NCBI GenBank assembly: GCA_018694835.1
Contig: JABHOG010000093.1
Span: 1 to 48,371, forward strand
Reading direction: 5' to 3'
Source: Planctomycetota bacterium
Lineage (GTDB): Bacteria; Planctomycetota; UBA8108; UBA1146
DNA length: 48,371 bases
Shown here: one piece after another, positions 1,752 through 7,526 of the stretch
How the letters are laid out: each line of letters opens with the position of its first letter
Numbering within the stretch: position 1 is the stretch's first letter
Translations under genes and position numbers: made by a program
The notes under the pieces: model-generated
Databases searched by the model: none
What the model saw: only the letters and a program-made list of their open reading frames with translations
What the model was told of the DNA's origin: nothing

Positions 1752-3161
1752 TCATCGAGCTGATCCCCGGGCGTTCAGTAAGGAAGCTGCGATTTCTGCG
1801 GTGCGCGGATCGACATCGCTGGTCTGGATCAGCTGCTGAAAGCCGCCCGGATCGCCAATAGGCCAACTCATGGCACAGATGCGTAAGGCAGTACCTCGGA
1901 CAGACCTGGAAGGGTCGCTCTGCGCCACCCTCTTCAAAGACTGGGCCCACCCTGGCGAGATACTTCCTCCCCGGCCGATGCCTCCCTGGCTGCCGTATAG
2001 CACCAGATTGCGGTACCCCTCCGAGTCGATCGAATCTCCACGCTGATAGATCATCTGTTGTAGATCGAGCTCGGTGGCGCGCGAAAATCCAGACAACAGA
2101 GCCGAACCTTGATACTCCTGCTGCAGCATCAGATCTGCGGCATGTTGCAGAAAACCTGGCAACTGCGCGCCGGAGATGCGCTGGAGCACCACCTCGATCA
2201 ACGGTACTTGTAACGACTCCTGCGCCTGACCAATCCAATTTGCCGCCCCGGCTGGATCATCCACGAGTGCCAGAACGACACTTTTCTGGGCCACTCGACG
2301 CAGTCCCGGGATCGGTGACTGGAGCCATTCACCCGCTACTGCCACCGCTTCATGATCTGCTGTGGCCAGACTCCACTCGATCATCTTCAGCAGCCGAGTC
2401 CGTGATTCTTCTTCTTCCCCTTCGAGAGGAAGTGGTCCAGCCGTCGATTCCATCATCGAGGCCAGTTCGATGGCGTGCCACGGTTGCAGCACTCCTTCCA
2501 CCTGTAAGAAGCGTGGGAAGTAGCGGGCGCGCTGCTCGCCAGAGATCCACAGATCGGCCATTGCAAGAATGGTCCCGCCGCGGTCGAACCACAGCGAAGC
2601 CCATTCCCCTCCCGCTGCAACCTCCTGCTGCAGATGGCCCACCGATCCATCTGCGGAATTAGTGCCGATGGAGAGGGCCGTTGCGAGCGCAACCATCAAC
2701 GCATCCTGCTCGTCTTGCCCCCCTTCCGTCTCCAGTATCAAGGTCAACAGCTGATCTCCCATCCCCGGTTGAGCCGTCAGCAGTGCAGCGATGGCCGCTG
2801 CTGGATCCTCCTGCGCTCGCCCTGCAGCGATCACCAAATCGAGCGGCTCGCGCCACGCATCCTTTTTGGCAGTCGAGACCATGGTGAGCGACTCATCGGT
2901 GAGCGCTTCCTGCTCCCGCGACGCAACTCCATCGGAGAACAGACCCACTGTGGGTGGCTCGCTCAAGGGCTCTTTCTGACGGACCAGCTGCAGCCTGGCC
3001 TCACTTCTCCCCTCGTCGACTTCGGCCAACCGCTCGCCTTCGCCGAAGCGAAACCACAGTAGTAGCGCCAGCAACCCCACCACCGCCACCACCGCCACCA
3101 CCGCCAACTTCGACCCGCGCGGATTGCCAACCAGCCAACTACCGTTTTCTCGATCTCTCAT
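1752..3161 (-). CDS. Membrane-anchored hypothetical protein, helical repeat type
   Basis: Function unknown; 469 residues. A short basic N-terminus is followed by one strongly hydrophobic segment (about residues 19-37, rich in Ala and Val) with no clear cleavage site, so it is probably a single-pass anchor with the rest outside the cytoplasm. The remainder is helical, with Leu/Ala-rich segments that resemble HEAT/armadillo-like repeats, but I see no named domain or catalytic motif. A GAGGAG ribosome binding site precedes the ATG at 3161. Part of the membrane segment is coded by a 9-bp tandem repeat. The 871-residue protein at 11845-14460 has a similar general character; homology between them is untested. 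Confidence 0.65.
   Translation of the reverse strand: MRDRENGSWLVGNPRGSKLAVVAVVAVVGLLALLLWFRFGEGERLAEVDEGRSEARLQLVRQKEPLSEPPTVGLFSDGVASREQEALTDESLTMVSTAKKDAWREPLDLVIAAGRAQEDPAAAIAALLTAQPGMGDQLLTLILETEGGQDEQDALMVALATALSIGTNSADGSVGHLQQEVAAGGEWASLWFDRGGTILAMADLWISGEQRARYFPRFLQVEGVLQPWHAIELASMMESTAGPLPLEGEEEESRTRLLKMIEWSLATADHEAVAVAGEWLQSPIPGLRRVAQKSVVLALVDDPAGAANWIGQAQESLQVPLIEVVLQRISGAQLPGFLQHAADLMLQQEYQGSALLSGFSRATELDLQQMIYQRGDSIDSEGYRNLVLYGSQGGIGRGGSISPGWAQSLKRVAQSDPSRSVRGTALRICAMSWPIGDPGGFQQLIQTSDVDPRTAEIAASLLNARGSAR
3078..3104. repeat. 9-bp tandem repeat, 3 copies
   Basis: Three exact copies of CACCACCGC (plus strand). They encode an Ala/Val repeat inside the transmembrane segment of the gene at 1752-3161. 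Confidence 0.9.
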
Positions 3162-3189: not shown

Positions 3190-3870
3190 TTATTTACTTC
3201 TCTGGTTGCACGGCTCGGTCAACGTGCCGCCCGCACAGGGCGAGGCGACCCAACTGATCTGCTCCGAAATCTCAATCGCCTCTCCTTGCGGCAGGCAGTC
3301 ATGGTCCCAACAAATGATGAACATTCGGGTGCATTCACAACGCAGCGACTGTCGCATCACCGGCAGTGACTGTTGCGAGAGGAGGCAGCACCCCGCCACC
3401 GTAGTCGGGACTCGATGAGCCGGTTCGATGATCACCCAGATCGGGCACAGATCCGGCTGAAGAAACACCTCGATCTCGAGACGGTGGAGGATCAGCTGCA
3501 ATGCCGTTCCTGTGCACTCATTGGTCACGGGGGAGACCAGTTGGCGCCACCCGGTCTCCGAGGTGCCGACTCCTGGGCAGTCTCCATCACAGTTGAGACT
3601 GGCGGGGATCGCTCGATCGGGATTCTGGGCCAGAACCTCGACTCCTGTGCCGCTCCACAGCAGCAATCCCATCCACATCGCCATCCACATCGCCCTTGGC
3701 CGATGGTTGATCGGACCACGCTGCTTCCTCTCCTTCCCCTCCTTTCCCCCGTCCCTCTCGTGCTCTTTTTCCTCCTCGTTCCTCTCGTGCTCTTTTTCCT
3801 TCGCGTTGCTCTCGTGCTCCTTTTGCTCCACGTTCTCCTCAAACATCTGCAGCGAATGGTTTTCCTTCAA
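3190..3870 (-). CDS. Cys-rich exported hypothetical protein with charged 9-residue repeats
   Basis: Unrecognised protein, 226 residues from a TTG at 3870 with GGAAGGA upstream; an ATG at 3846 is an alternative with a poorer binding site. Residues 13-39 are three 9-residue repeats of the type NxExKEHER, very rich in Glu, Lys and His. A basic stretch, then a hydrophobic segment (about 60-80) ending in an Ala-Gln that looks like a signal peptidase site, follow. The C-terminal part has many cysteines, including CDGDC and CCLL clusters, and is probably disulfide-bonded outside the cytoplasm. A long charged cytoplasmic tail before a signal-like segment is unusual. An alternative is that translation starts just before the Met-Trp-Met segment. 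It lies downstream of the DsbD gene on the same strand. Confidence 0.5.
   Translation of the reverse strand: MKENHSLQMFEENVEQKEHESNAKEKEHERNEEEKEHERDGGKEGKERKQRGPINHRPRAMWMAMWMGLLLWSGTGVEVLAQNPDRAIPASLNCDGDCPGVGTSETGWRQLVSPVTNECTGTALQLILHRLEIEVFLQPDLCPIWVIIEPAHRVPTTVAGCCLLSQQSLPVMRQSLRCECTRMFIICWDHDCLPQGEAIEISEQISWVASPCAGGTLTEPCNQRSK
3755..3835. repeat. 27-bp tandem repeat, 3 copies
   Basis: Units at 3755-3781, 3782-3808 and 3809-3835, each starting CTCTCGTGCTC on the plus strand. The first two are near identical, the third is diverged. The period is a multiple of three, so it encodes the 9-residue KEHER-type repeat of the minus-strand gene. Confidence 0.9.
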
Positions 3871-4202: not shown

Positions 4203-7067
4203 TCAGGAGCCAGAGGTGACCTGCAACGCCAGCTTGATCGGTAGCGAGAAGGTGCGGATGCGTTCATCTCCGCGGTACAGCCCTCCGACAAATCGGAGGC
4301 GGATGATGTACTCCCCCTCCTCCACCTGATCACCGACCCGGAAGGATGTCGAGGCTGAAAAACTGGAAACAAGTTGCTCGACATCGCTCTCTCGATAAAT
4401 GCCCGCCTGCTGCCCCTCGTAACTCCACGGTTGTTGCTGTTGCAAGACCGTGACCTCAGTTCCATGCTCGACGATGGTCAATCCATCGAACTGAATACGA
4501 CTCTCGAAGGCGGGTCGGTCGAGCAACCCTTCCTCGAGAAATTCGGCAAACTCATCGCTACTGTTGGTGAACGAACCCCGCGTCACTTCCAGTTGATCCG
4601 TGCTGTCGAGCACGATGTAGGTCGGGTTGGCGTAGTAGCCGGAATACTCGATTTGTTTCGATCGATAGCCTTCTTCCACCTCGCTGGTGGCGTCATCGGT
4701 AAAGATCTCGAACAGTTCAAATTGGCCGAGCAACTGCTCGACTTCGGGCTCGCGGAAAATGCCATTTTCCATCAGCCTGCAGTTCTGTCAGGTGTGGCCA
4801 GTGAAGTTGACGAAGATGGGTCGAGGAGATCTCTCGCCGGCAGCATTCTGATCGCGCAGCTGCTGCAACTGGTCGTCCAAATCGAGTGGATGGTCTCGAT
4901 CGAGCACCACCCAGGGAAGGTGCTGTTGTTGGTGAACACTGGGCACCAGCAGCTGTGCTTCGAGGTTCTCATTGAGTCGCCAGCCGGTCGTCGCATAGAA
5001 ACAACTGATCGCTCCAATCAAGGTCAATCCCAGCAACAGCCCTCTTCCGAAAGAGATCGATTTCACCGGAGAATCGTGCGGGAAACGTAGTTTTCCGGCC
5101 AGATTGAGGGCCAGCGCCAGCAGTGTCAGACCCCAGATCACCATGATCACCTCGCGGTTGACCACGTCACCAAACTGCCAGTAGGTGGCCACTGCACTGA
5201 AGAACTTCCACGCCGCCAGCAACTCGATGAATCCGAGGATCACCTTGACCGTCGAGAGCCAGCCGCCAGAGCGAGGCAGGCCCGTCAACACCTTGGGAAA
5301 CAGTGCCAGTAATACGAAGGGAACCGCCAGGGTGGTACTGAAGGCGAGCATGCCGATTGCGGCGTAGCCGGGACCTTCCCCCGCCGCCAGAGCGAGTAGA
5401 AATGCGACGATCGGGCCGACACAGGTGAAGGTGGTGACGCTGAAGACCAGCCCCATCACCAGCACACTGGCGGCTCCACCACCACCACCACTGCCTCCCA
5501 CCGCGGATCGGAGCCAGTTGGGCAACTGGATGTCGTAGTAACCGAACAAGCTGAAACCAAACACGACAAAGAGCACTCCGATGGCCAGATTGACAAACCC
5601 GTTGGTCGCCATGAAGTTGGCGCCCTCCTCCCCGAGCAGCGCCGACAGCAAGAATCCGAGCGCGGTGAAGGAGACGACGATTCCCGCGCCAAAGAGTCCG
5701 GCGAGCCACAACACCCGAGAACGACTCTCGTGGGCTTGCTTGGTGAAGACGCTGACGGTGATGGGGATCATCGGATAGACACAGGGAGTCAACAATGCCA
5801 CCAGTGCCCCACCGAAGGAGAGCAGGATGATCCCGAGCAGTCCGGCCTGTTCCGCCGCCCCCCGGGTGTCCTTGCGGATGGCAGGAATCCTCAGTGCCTG
5901 CTCGACCGACCCCTCCAGCTGGAAGTCGATCACACTCCCGGGCTGCACATCCTTCTGACTGAATCCCGCCGAGATGCGGATTTCACCGTCCGCGACCTCA
6001 GGACGAAGAGGGGCATCATTTCCGTCAGTGGATTCGATCTCGGATGGAGACAATTCCGTGGGAGCCTTGCCCGAGAAGAGCGGAATCTCCAGTGAAACCT
6101 GTTCTGGAGGAAGACAGAGCCGCGCATCGCAGACCATGTATCCGACCCGGAGCTGGAGTGCCTTCAGCGGCTTCGGCAGCGGCTGCGGAATCGAAATCGG
6201 CAGCCGGAAGATCGCCTTGCGCTCATGCTCGAGCAGCACTCCACCCGATCCGTCATCGCGAGGGCGAGGTGGCGTCACCTCGATCGGCTCACCGATGGTC
6301 AGTGCAGAGTCCTCAGCGATGTGAAAAGTGGTCGGATCGCCCAGATCGGGATCGAGCCCGATCCCGTAGATATGCCATCCCCGTTCGATGATGGCGTGAA
6401 GTTCGACCTGCACCGTGGTCCCGGCTTGCAGCTGGTCGACTCCGATCGCTCGCCAGGAAACCGGTGAACCCTGGAGCGCCGCTTCCACCTTCAATGAAGC
6501 GGGAACTTCTTTCGCTGCTGCACCCTTTTCGGGCGAACTCTTGGCCCCCACCGTGACCACAGCCTCGACCGTGGCCATCGAAGGCGGAAGACATTGCTTG
6601 GCATCACAGACCTGGTAACTGATGTCGATGAGGACCTTGCGTGGACCCGCCTCTGCGGACTCGGGCACCTGCAGCGGAACCTCGAACTGAACCTTGCCCT
6701 CATGCTCGTGCACCAGGCCGAGGATGGCATCATCTCGTTGGTGGGCCGACTGCTCACGAATGTCATGATGGAGTTCCAGATCTCCCGATCCGGCCAGCAC
6801 CAAGGTGGTGGGAATCCCCTGCTCTGGATCCATCTCGAATCCATAGATATGCCAGCCCCGTTCGATGGTGGCGAAGACCTTGACCACCACTTCGGTACCC
6901 GGCACCGCACCATCTACACCCTCAGCAGAGAACTGGACGGGAGAATCATCATCGAAGCCAAAAGCATCGAGATCGAAGCCGTCGAGTCCCGGAGGATCCT
7001 GCGCCAGTACCGATATCGAGATCAGCCATCCCAGGATCAGCACTATCATCGATCGGATCAGATTCAT
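4203..7067 (-). CDS. dsbD: Selenocysteine-containing DsbD-type thiol:disulfide interchange protein
   Basis: Moves reducing power from the cytoplasm across the inner membrane to periplasmic thiol proteins. Read as one 954-residue protein with an in-frame TGA (4788-4790) as residue 760. Order: signal peptide (1-22); two DsbD N-terminal-type domains (about 45-175 and 205-330), each with GWHIYG and a CDAxxC pair (C154/C159, C313/C318); a multi-helix DsbD membrane domain (about 405-700) with its two redox cysteines in TPC (C429) and FTC (C549); a thioredoxin domain whose active site reads FTGHT-U-QNC, with C763 kept and a cis-Pro-like NPT later; and about 95 extra C-terminal residues of unknown fold. 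The thioredoxin domain matches DsbD types that carry FTGYxCxNCRxME. Start ATG at 7067 with AGAAGG upstream. Alternative: a nonsense mutation giving a truncated protein. Confidence 0.85.
4747..4777 (-). promoter_or_regulatory. Candidate bacterial SECIS hairpin behind the DsbD TGA
   Basis: On the minus strand, starting 17 nt after the TGA, GGAAAAT (4770-4764) pairs perfectly with ATTTTCC (4760-4754) around a GGC loop (4763-4761). The stem extends by a T-G pair, then after a 2x2 internal loop by GGCT/AGCC (4777-4774 with 4750-4747). The apical loop begins 24 nt after the TGA and its first two bases are G. This agrees with the usual SelB-binding SECIS layout (loop about 16-37 nt downstream, G in the first two loop bases). 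The hairpin also codes for protein. Confidence 0.7.
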
Positions 7068-7092
7068 CGGTATCGCCTTCTGTTACAGGGGT

Positions 7093-7362
7093 TCAATCGT
7101 CGAGAGCGACAGCAGCAAGGATTTCTGCGGCGGGGAACTCTCCACCGCCGGGAGTGTAGGCTCGAACCCACCGATCCCCCACGACCAGGAAAGGAATCCC
7201 ACGCTTGCCAGTCTGGCGCTCCAACTCGAGGGCCGCTTGCGGATCCTGCGAGATATCGACCTTCTGGTAAACGACCTTGTGTTCATCCAGAAATCGGGAT
7301 GCACGGGTACAATCCGGGCACCAGGTGGCTCCATAGAGCAGTATCGACGATTTCTCGGACAT
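7093..7362 (-). CDS. Glutaredoxin-like protein
   Basis: Small thioredoxin-fold oxidoreductase, 89 residues, of the glutaredoxin/mycoredoxin type. The active site WCPDC lies near residues 14-18, followed by the first helix. The RGIPFLVV segment carries the conserved cis-proline. Start ATG at 7362 has GGAGG eight bases upstream; the frame is open a further 20 codons, but that part shows no family similarity. It lies 25 nt upstream of the selenoprotein DsbD gene on the same strand, so the two are probably co-transcribed and may share a redox role. Whether it feeds electrons to DsbD cannot be told from sequence. Confidence 0.85.
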   Translation of the reverse strand: MSEKSSILLYGATWCPDCTRASRFLDEHKVVYQKVDISQDPQAALELERQTGKRGIPFLVVGDRWVRAYTPGGGEFPAAEILAAVALDD

Positions 7363-7526
7363 CCAGACCTCCAACTGTCTCCCCGGCGGGATCTTATCAT
7401 GGCCGATTCCATCTGGCGACACGCCTTGCTTGGATGCCCGAGGAGTTGACGGATATCCTACGCCAGCGGGAGCCGCTGGGTTCCCACCAACTAGACCCCC
7501 TGCGGGGCCAGAAGGGTGGATCTGAA

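Follow-up and report, generated by a model that had tools for sequence, protein, structure and literature searches.

A DsbD-type protein of Planctomycetota with a predicted selenocysteine at the first redox position of its thioredoxin domain

The window, that is the whole stretch of 48,371 nucleotides that was analysed (contig JABHOG010000093.1 of Planctomycetota assembly GCA_018694835.1), carries a DsbD-type gene whose frame is interrupted by a single internal stop, the TGA of codon 760 (Table 1). The surrounding residues, NFTGHT-U-QNCRLMENGIF, place this codon at the first redox position of the thioredoxin-domain CxxC, and 194 sense codons follow it before the terminal TGA. An earlier, sequence-only reading of this DNA had put the TGA exactly at the first thioredoxin-site cysteine with 194 more open codons behind it, and translation gives the same position and the same count. 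It had also expected standard gene callers to report a truncated DsbD and a small gene from 4772, and under translation table 11 the frame does break into ORFs at 4788-7067 (759 aa) and 4203-4772 (189 aa). Annotation that takes TGA as a stop would cut a Sec-containing dsbD in two and report a truncated gene. Several dozen frames in the window can be read through a single TGA. The DsbD frame is the second longest of these and the only one with its TGA in a redox motif, therefore it is not regarded as a chance read-through frame.

The glutaredoxin-like gene next to dsbD is a possible operon partner. A frame at 7083-7412 was considered as the upstream gene and rejected as the wrong frame, the glutaredoxin gene being the one listed in Table 1. 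Downstream of dsbD, two minus-strand genes (1752-3161 and 3190-3870) have no Pfam match and are kept beside dsbD across the family.

Table 1. Features of the dsbD locus, in positions of the window
Feature	Positions	Strand	Remarks
Sec-containing DsbD-type gene	4203..7067	minus	954 residues; ATG at 7067; terminal TGA 4205-4203
Hydrophobic N-terminal segment, probable signal peptide, residues 1-22	7002..7067	minus	translation; helix 2-21 in AlphaFold2 model
First DsbD alpha-type beta domain, residues 44-173, Cys154/Cys159	6549..6938	minus	Pfam, model, structure match
Second DsbD alpha-type beta domain, residues 195-330, Cys313/Cys318	6078..6485	minus	Pfam, model, structure match
DsbD/CcdA-type membrane domain and following helices, residues 413-692, Cys429/Cys549	4992..5831	minus	Pfam, alignment, model
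Gamma (thioredoxin) domain, residues 720-848, Sec760, Cys763, Pro815	4524..4910	minus	Thioredoxin_7 just under cut-off, alignment, model, structure match
In-frame TGA, codon 760, read as selenocysteine	4788..4790	minus	position of Cys461 of E. coli DsbD
Cys763, resolving Cys of U-x-x-C	4779..4781	minus	translation; invariant
SECIS-like hairpin UGGAAAAU-GGC-AUUUUCCG	4753..4771	minus	loop 25-27 nt after TGA
C-terminal extension, residues 855-954, predicted beta domain	4206..4505	minus	AlphaFold2 model; common to whole family
Glutaredoxin-like gene (CPDC)	7093..7362	minus	directly upstream of dsbD, same strand; conserved in family

The domains of the protein were assigned by Pfam searches, alignment and modelling. 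PF11412 (DsbD_N) matches above its cut-off in two stretches and PF02683 (DsbD_TM) matches with 84.7 bits against a cut-off of 27.1, while the Thioredoxin_7 match of the gamma domain is marginal (26.4 bits against a cut-off of 27). By sequence, the thioredoxin part with its UxxC aligns to solved DsbD-gamma domains and the membrane part aligns to CcdA. The alignment shows no variation at residues 429, 549, 760, 763 and Pro815 when Sec is counted as Cys. The resolving Cys, the cis-Pro region and the membrane-domain cysteines had been described as intact, and Cys763, Pro815 and Cys429/Cys549 are indeed all present. The C-terminal extension has no Pfam match. In an AlphaFold2 model made from 18 window and locus sequences, two beta domains and another beta stretch (357-395) precede a helical membrane domain, and a thioredoxin domain and a C-terminal beta domain follow it. 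Parts of the model superpose on solved nDsbD and cDsbD structures with TM-scores of 0.62-0.78 by target length. The placement of the domains in the model is unsure because the mean pLDDT is 72 and the pTM 0.45. The NCBIfam model for protein-disulfide reductase DsbD (NF001419, PRK00293) scores 145.1 bits, below its curated cut-off of 330. The protein is thus a divergent DsbD-type protein outside the NF001419 subfamily, to which the E. coli mechanism may not apply in every detail.

A search of the same genome for selA, selB, selC and selD had been proposed as a check, and all four were found. Those for SelA, SelD and a tRNA-Sec (UCA anticodon) are clustered within 2.5 kb, and selB lies on another contig. 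The selD gene (L010:4315-6018, plus strand) has an in-frame TGA of its own in the motif SCAGUAAKL, and a table 11 caller would start it too late, at 4927. This motif fits UxxK, which is the listed motif of Sec-containing SelD (PMC13188914). Across the phylum set, SelA was found in 80/85 genomes with a Sec-DsbD compared with 36/49 genomes with Cys forms only. One of the five Sec-DsbD genomes that lack SelA, G003, has a tRNA-Sec; in the other four, the drafts G087, G228, G229 and G290, neither SelA nor a recognised tRNA-Sec was found, which counts against the Sec reading.

Termination and Sec insertion compete at UGA-Sec codons generally, and for this reason the UGA could be viewed as a selenium switch. 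When selenium is low, translation would end at codon 760, leaving a DsbD without its gamma redox centre and turning periplasmic reduction off. In keeping with this, a second DsbD/CcdA-type (DsbD_TM) membrane protein that might act as a substitute was not found in the genome. However, at about 95% completeness the assembly could be missing a second copy, and any Sec gene would behave in this way. A role of the codon as a switch is regarded as unlikely on this balance.

The in-frame TGA is shared by the relatives of the gene. All 14 family-level copies that cover the site carry a single TGA, always at this codon, with identities reaching down to 49%, and the class members read at this site agree. 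In the phylum search DsbD was found in 215 of 294 genomes. With frames cut at TAA and TAG, 150 distinct thioredoxin domains were obtained, in which the active-site codon is TGA in 92, TGC in 49, TGT in 9 and nothing else. The few TAA or TAG codons reported within phylum matches are in genes read as Cys or outside the active site. The expected exchange between Cys and UGA among homologues is therefore seen, as TGA swaps only with TGC or TGT at this column. Random stops in close relatives, which had been named as evidence that would speak against selenocysteine, do not occur, since these relatives show no other stop inside the gene. Values of dN/dS past the TGA are 0.07-0.25, much as they are ahead of it, which points to purifying selection on both parts.

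These observations bear directly on whether the TGA is a true stop, in which case the gene would be a decaying pseudogene or would be two genes, one for a shortened DsbD and a downstream one for a small protein from 4772. Both pieces are ORFs under table 11 and the second one has an ATG, but the small ORF lacks the start of the thioredoxin fold and the active site. The purifying selection on the downstream part, the single TGA at one codon with no other stop in all relatives down to 49% identity, and its replacement by Cys codons only in more distant homologues all argue against termination, and a true stop is considered very improbable. An amino acid is evidently inserted at this TGA, as would also be the case under an altered code (e.g. 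Trp, Gly or Cys). Such a code has an exceedingly small probability, as 15 of the 22 long ORFs tallied in the window terminate in TGA, other matched genes have no internal TGA (selA and selB are without stops) and the Sec machinery of the genome is complete. A sequencing or assembly error that misread a Cys codon at 4788-4790 would be conceivable for a single assembly but is negligible, given the same TGA in 14 separately assembled family genomes and in 92 phylum domains. On comparison of these sequences, the TGA of codon 760 almost certainly specifies selenocysteine.

The history of the site was followed on a tree of 124 sequences from which the trait residue had been masked out. This tree requires about 10 interchanges between Sec and Cys, compared with 32 in shuffles, and at least 5 changes are forced by well-supported branches. 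The family of the window sits on a long branch and its placement is not firmly resolved. In a comparison phylum (around G302) only Cys forms were seen where checked; TGA matches examined there as Sec candidates were rejected as ordinary terminators about 82 residues past the CxxC.

Other arrangements of Sec codons were also observed in the phylum. Loci L114, L117, L148, L159 and L160 (genomes G259, G142, G275, G240 and G171) encode a DsbD-type protein with a second, upstream thioredoxin domain and have a TGA in the UxxC of both domains, with a SECIS-like hairpin after each TGA in most of them. L124 has a TGA in the upstream domain and a TGC in the downstream domain. Thioredoxin-like frames with a TGA in UxxC adjoin the dsbD loci of other genomes at L147 (minus, frame 1; WAEWUGYC) and L156 (minus, frame 0, residues 1311-1334; FWGFWUPPC), and these are possible extra Sec proteins.

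Sec codons were also compared for the presence of SECIS-like hairpins. The rule used called for a G in the first two loop bases, a loop start 15-29 nt past the codon and an energy of -5 kcal/mol or lower. By this rule hairpins follow 66/92 Sec domains (72%) and 9/58 Cys domains (16%), with a Fisher p of 1.4e-11 for sequences that are related and hence not independent. Covariation within the genus of the window is uninformative, since the need to encode MENGIF constrains the hairpin arms, and synonymous-codon shuffles and offset intervals were used as controls in its place. The margin over synonymous-codon shuffles is far larger for Sec domains than for Cys domains. When the scanned interval was shifted along the genes, the fraction of Sec domains with a hairpin fell from 70% to 1-33%, except at +30 nt. 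At that offset (49%) a second, weaker excess of hairpins is seen at many loci, about 45-65 nt past the Sec codon, in Sec and not Cys genes, and it possibly represents overlap with the lower stem. Several of the hairpin loops are GGUC or GGUCU, as in the SECIS of E. coli fdhF. The hairpin of the window gene has an energy of -4.5 kcal/mol, and 10% of synonymous shuffles are equally good. It is well placed but only moderately better than chance, and a close relative, L020, has no hairpin by the same rule; both points count against the Sec reading.

It is highly probable, from the sequence evidence assembled here, that the gene encodes a Sec-decoded DsbD-type carrier of reducing equivalents that works by the following route. 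UGA 760 would be decoded as selenocysteine through SelB and tRNA-Sec, aided by the SECIS-like hairpin that lies some 17-35 nt beyond the codon. The redox pair of the periplasmic gamma domain would then consist of Sec760 and Cys763. A cytoplasmic thioredoxin or glutaredoxin may supply electrons to the membrane pair Cys429/Cys549, from which they would go to Sec760-Cys763 and on to the Cys pairs of the two alpha domains, which would reduce periplasmic client proteins. The comparisons support the site, the machinery, the Sec/Cys exchange, the translation downstream of the codon and the family-wide enrichment of hairpins; the incorporation of Sec itself, the way the electrons run and the choice of clients are inferred.

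In E. coli the membrane domain (tmDsbD) reduces the gamma domain, where Cys461 attacks the disulfide of the alpha domain; Asp455 and Glu468 set the pKa of Cys461 at 10.6, and no higher value has been reported for a Cys of this kind (PMC3961690). In the protein described here Sec is found at the position of Cys461, Glu767 matches Glu468 and Asn754 stands in place of Asp455. A selenol would be ionised at neutral pH, so the trade-off between speed and resistance to reoxidation is probably different in the Sec relay. At the -6 position (residue 754 in the window, 4808-4806, minus strand) Asp is found in 28/87 Sec forms and 25/37 Cys forms (p=0.0003, raw), and Asn in 41/87 and 5/37, respectively. 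A link between Sec and loss of the Asp455 equivalent receives no support from independent pairs on the tree and stays a lead.

Both cytochrome c maturation and the repair of periplasmic disulfides draw their electrons from DsbD, and a Sec form would put selenium at the hub of this relay in a phylum that is widespread. It is tentatively suggested that in much of Planctomycetota the main, perhaps the only, membrane carrier of periplasmic reducing power may depend on selenium, in single-Sec and double-Sec forms. If this is true, selenium supply would directly gate periplasmic disulfide reduction. Why is selenocysteine kept? Sec/Cys exchanges in otherwise homologous enzymes are a good setting in which to test this question, and repeated swaps in one enzyme of one phylum would amount to a natural experiment on what Sec contributes.

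Selenoproteins of related kinds are known. A 2016 study reports selenoproteins in two planctomycetes (PMC4807772). An inventory from 2026 of 119 prokaryotic selenoprotein families has no plain DsbD, and comes closest to it with TsoB and a PF13098 protein (PMC13188914). TsoB (NF045694, PMC13188914), a rhodanese/DsbD fusion-like selenoprotein, has a DsbD-like membrane domain in common with the protein described here (126.2 bits over 398-694), but it has two Sec residues in UxxxxU, and the present DsbD falls far below the TsoB cut-off of 805 bits with its gamma domain unmatched. The PF13098 protein, WP_011366075.1, is a UxxC selenoprotein with the similar name "thiol:disulfide interchange protein"; it differs in being assigned to Thioredoxin_2 (PMC13188914, PMC9312934).

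The sequence-only reading had called a Sec-containing DsbD little described. This holds for the full-length form, for which no description was found in the searchable part of the open-access full-text literature. It needs softening for the gamma domain. One conserved-domain class to consider is cd02953, which we take to be the DsbD-gamma family. In the 2008 GOS survey of marine metagenomes, 22 Sec sequences are entered under cd02953 as "Trx-like 2 (Thiol disulfide interchange protein)" with UxxC (PMC2398784). These share the UxxC of the present protein and, with cd02953 taken as above, its DsbD-gamma class; in the main text of that survey they form a table row without full-length architecture, host or Sec/Cys history (PMC2398784). 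The Sec-DsbD kind is thus known in outline and its novelty is moderate, while neither the full-length membrane form nor the phylum-wide mixture of Sec and Cys nor the double-Sec forms seem to have been described in the literature that could be searched. The closest well-characterized system is E. coli DsbD (nDsbD, 1L6P and 1JPE; cDsbD, 2FWE and 2FWF; mixed-disulfide complex, 1VRS). Both proteins have alpha, membrane and gamma domains in one order, with their redox Cys pairs, but the protein from the window has Sec in place of Cys461, two alpha domains, a C-terminal beta extension and Asn at the position of Asp455.
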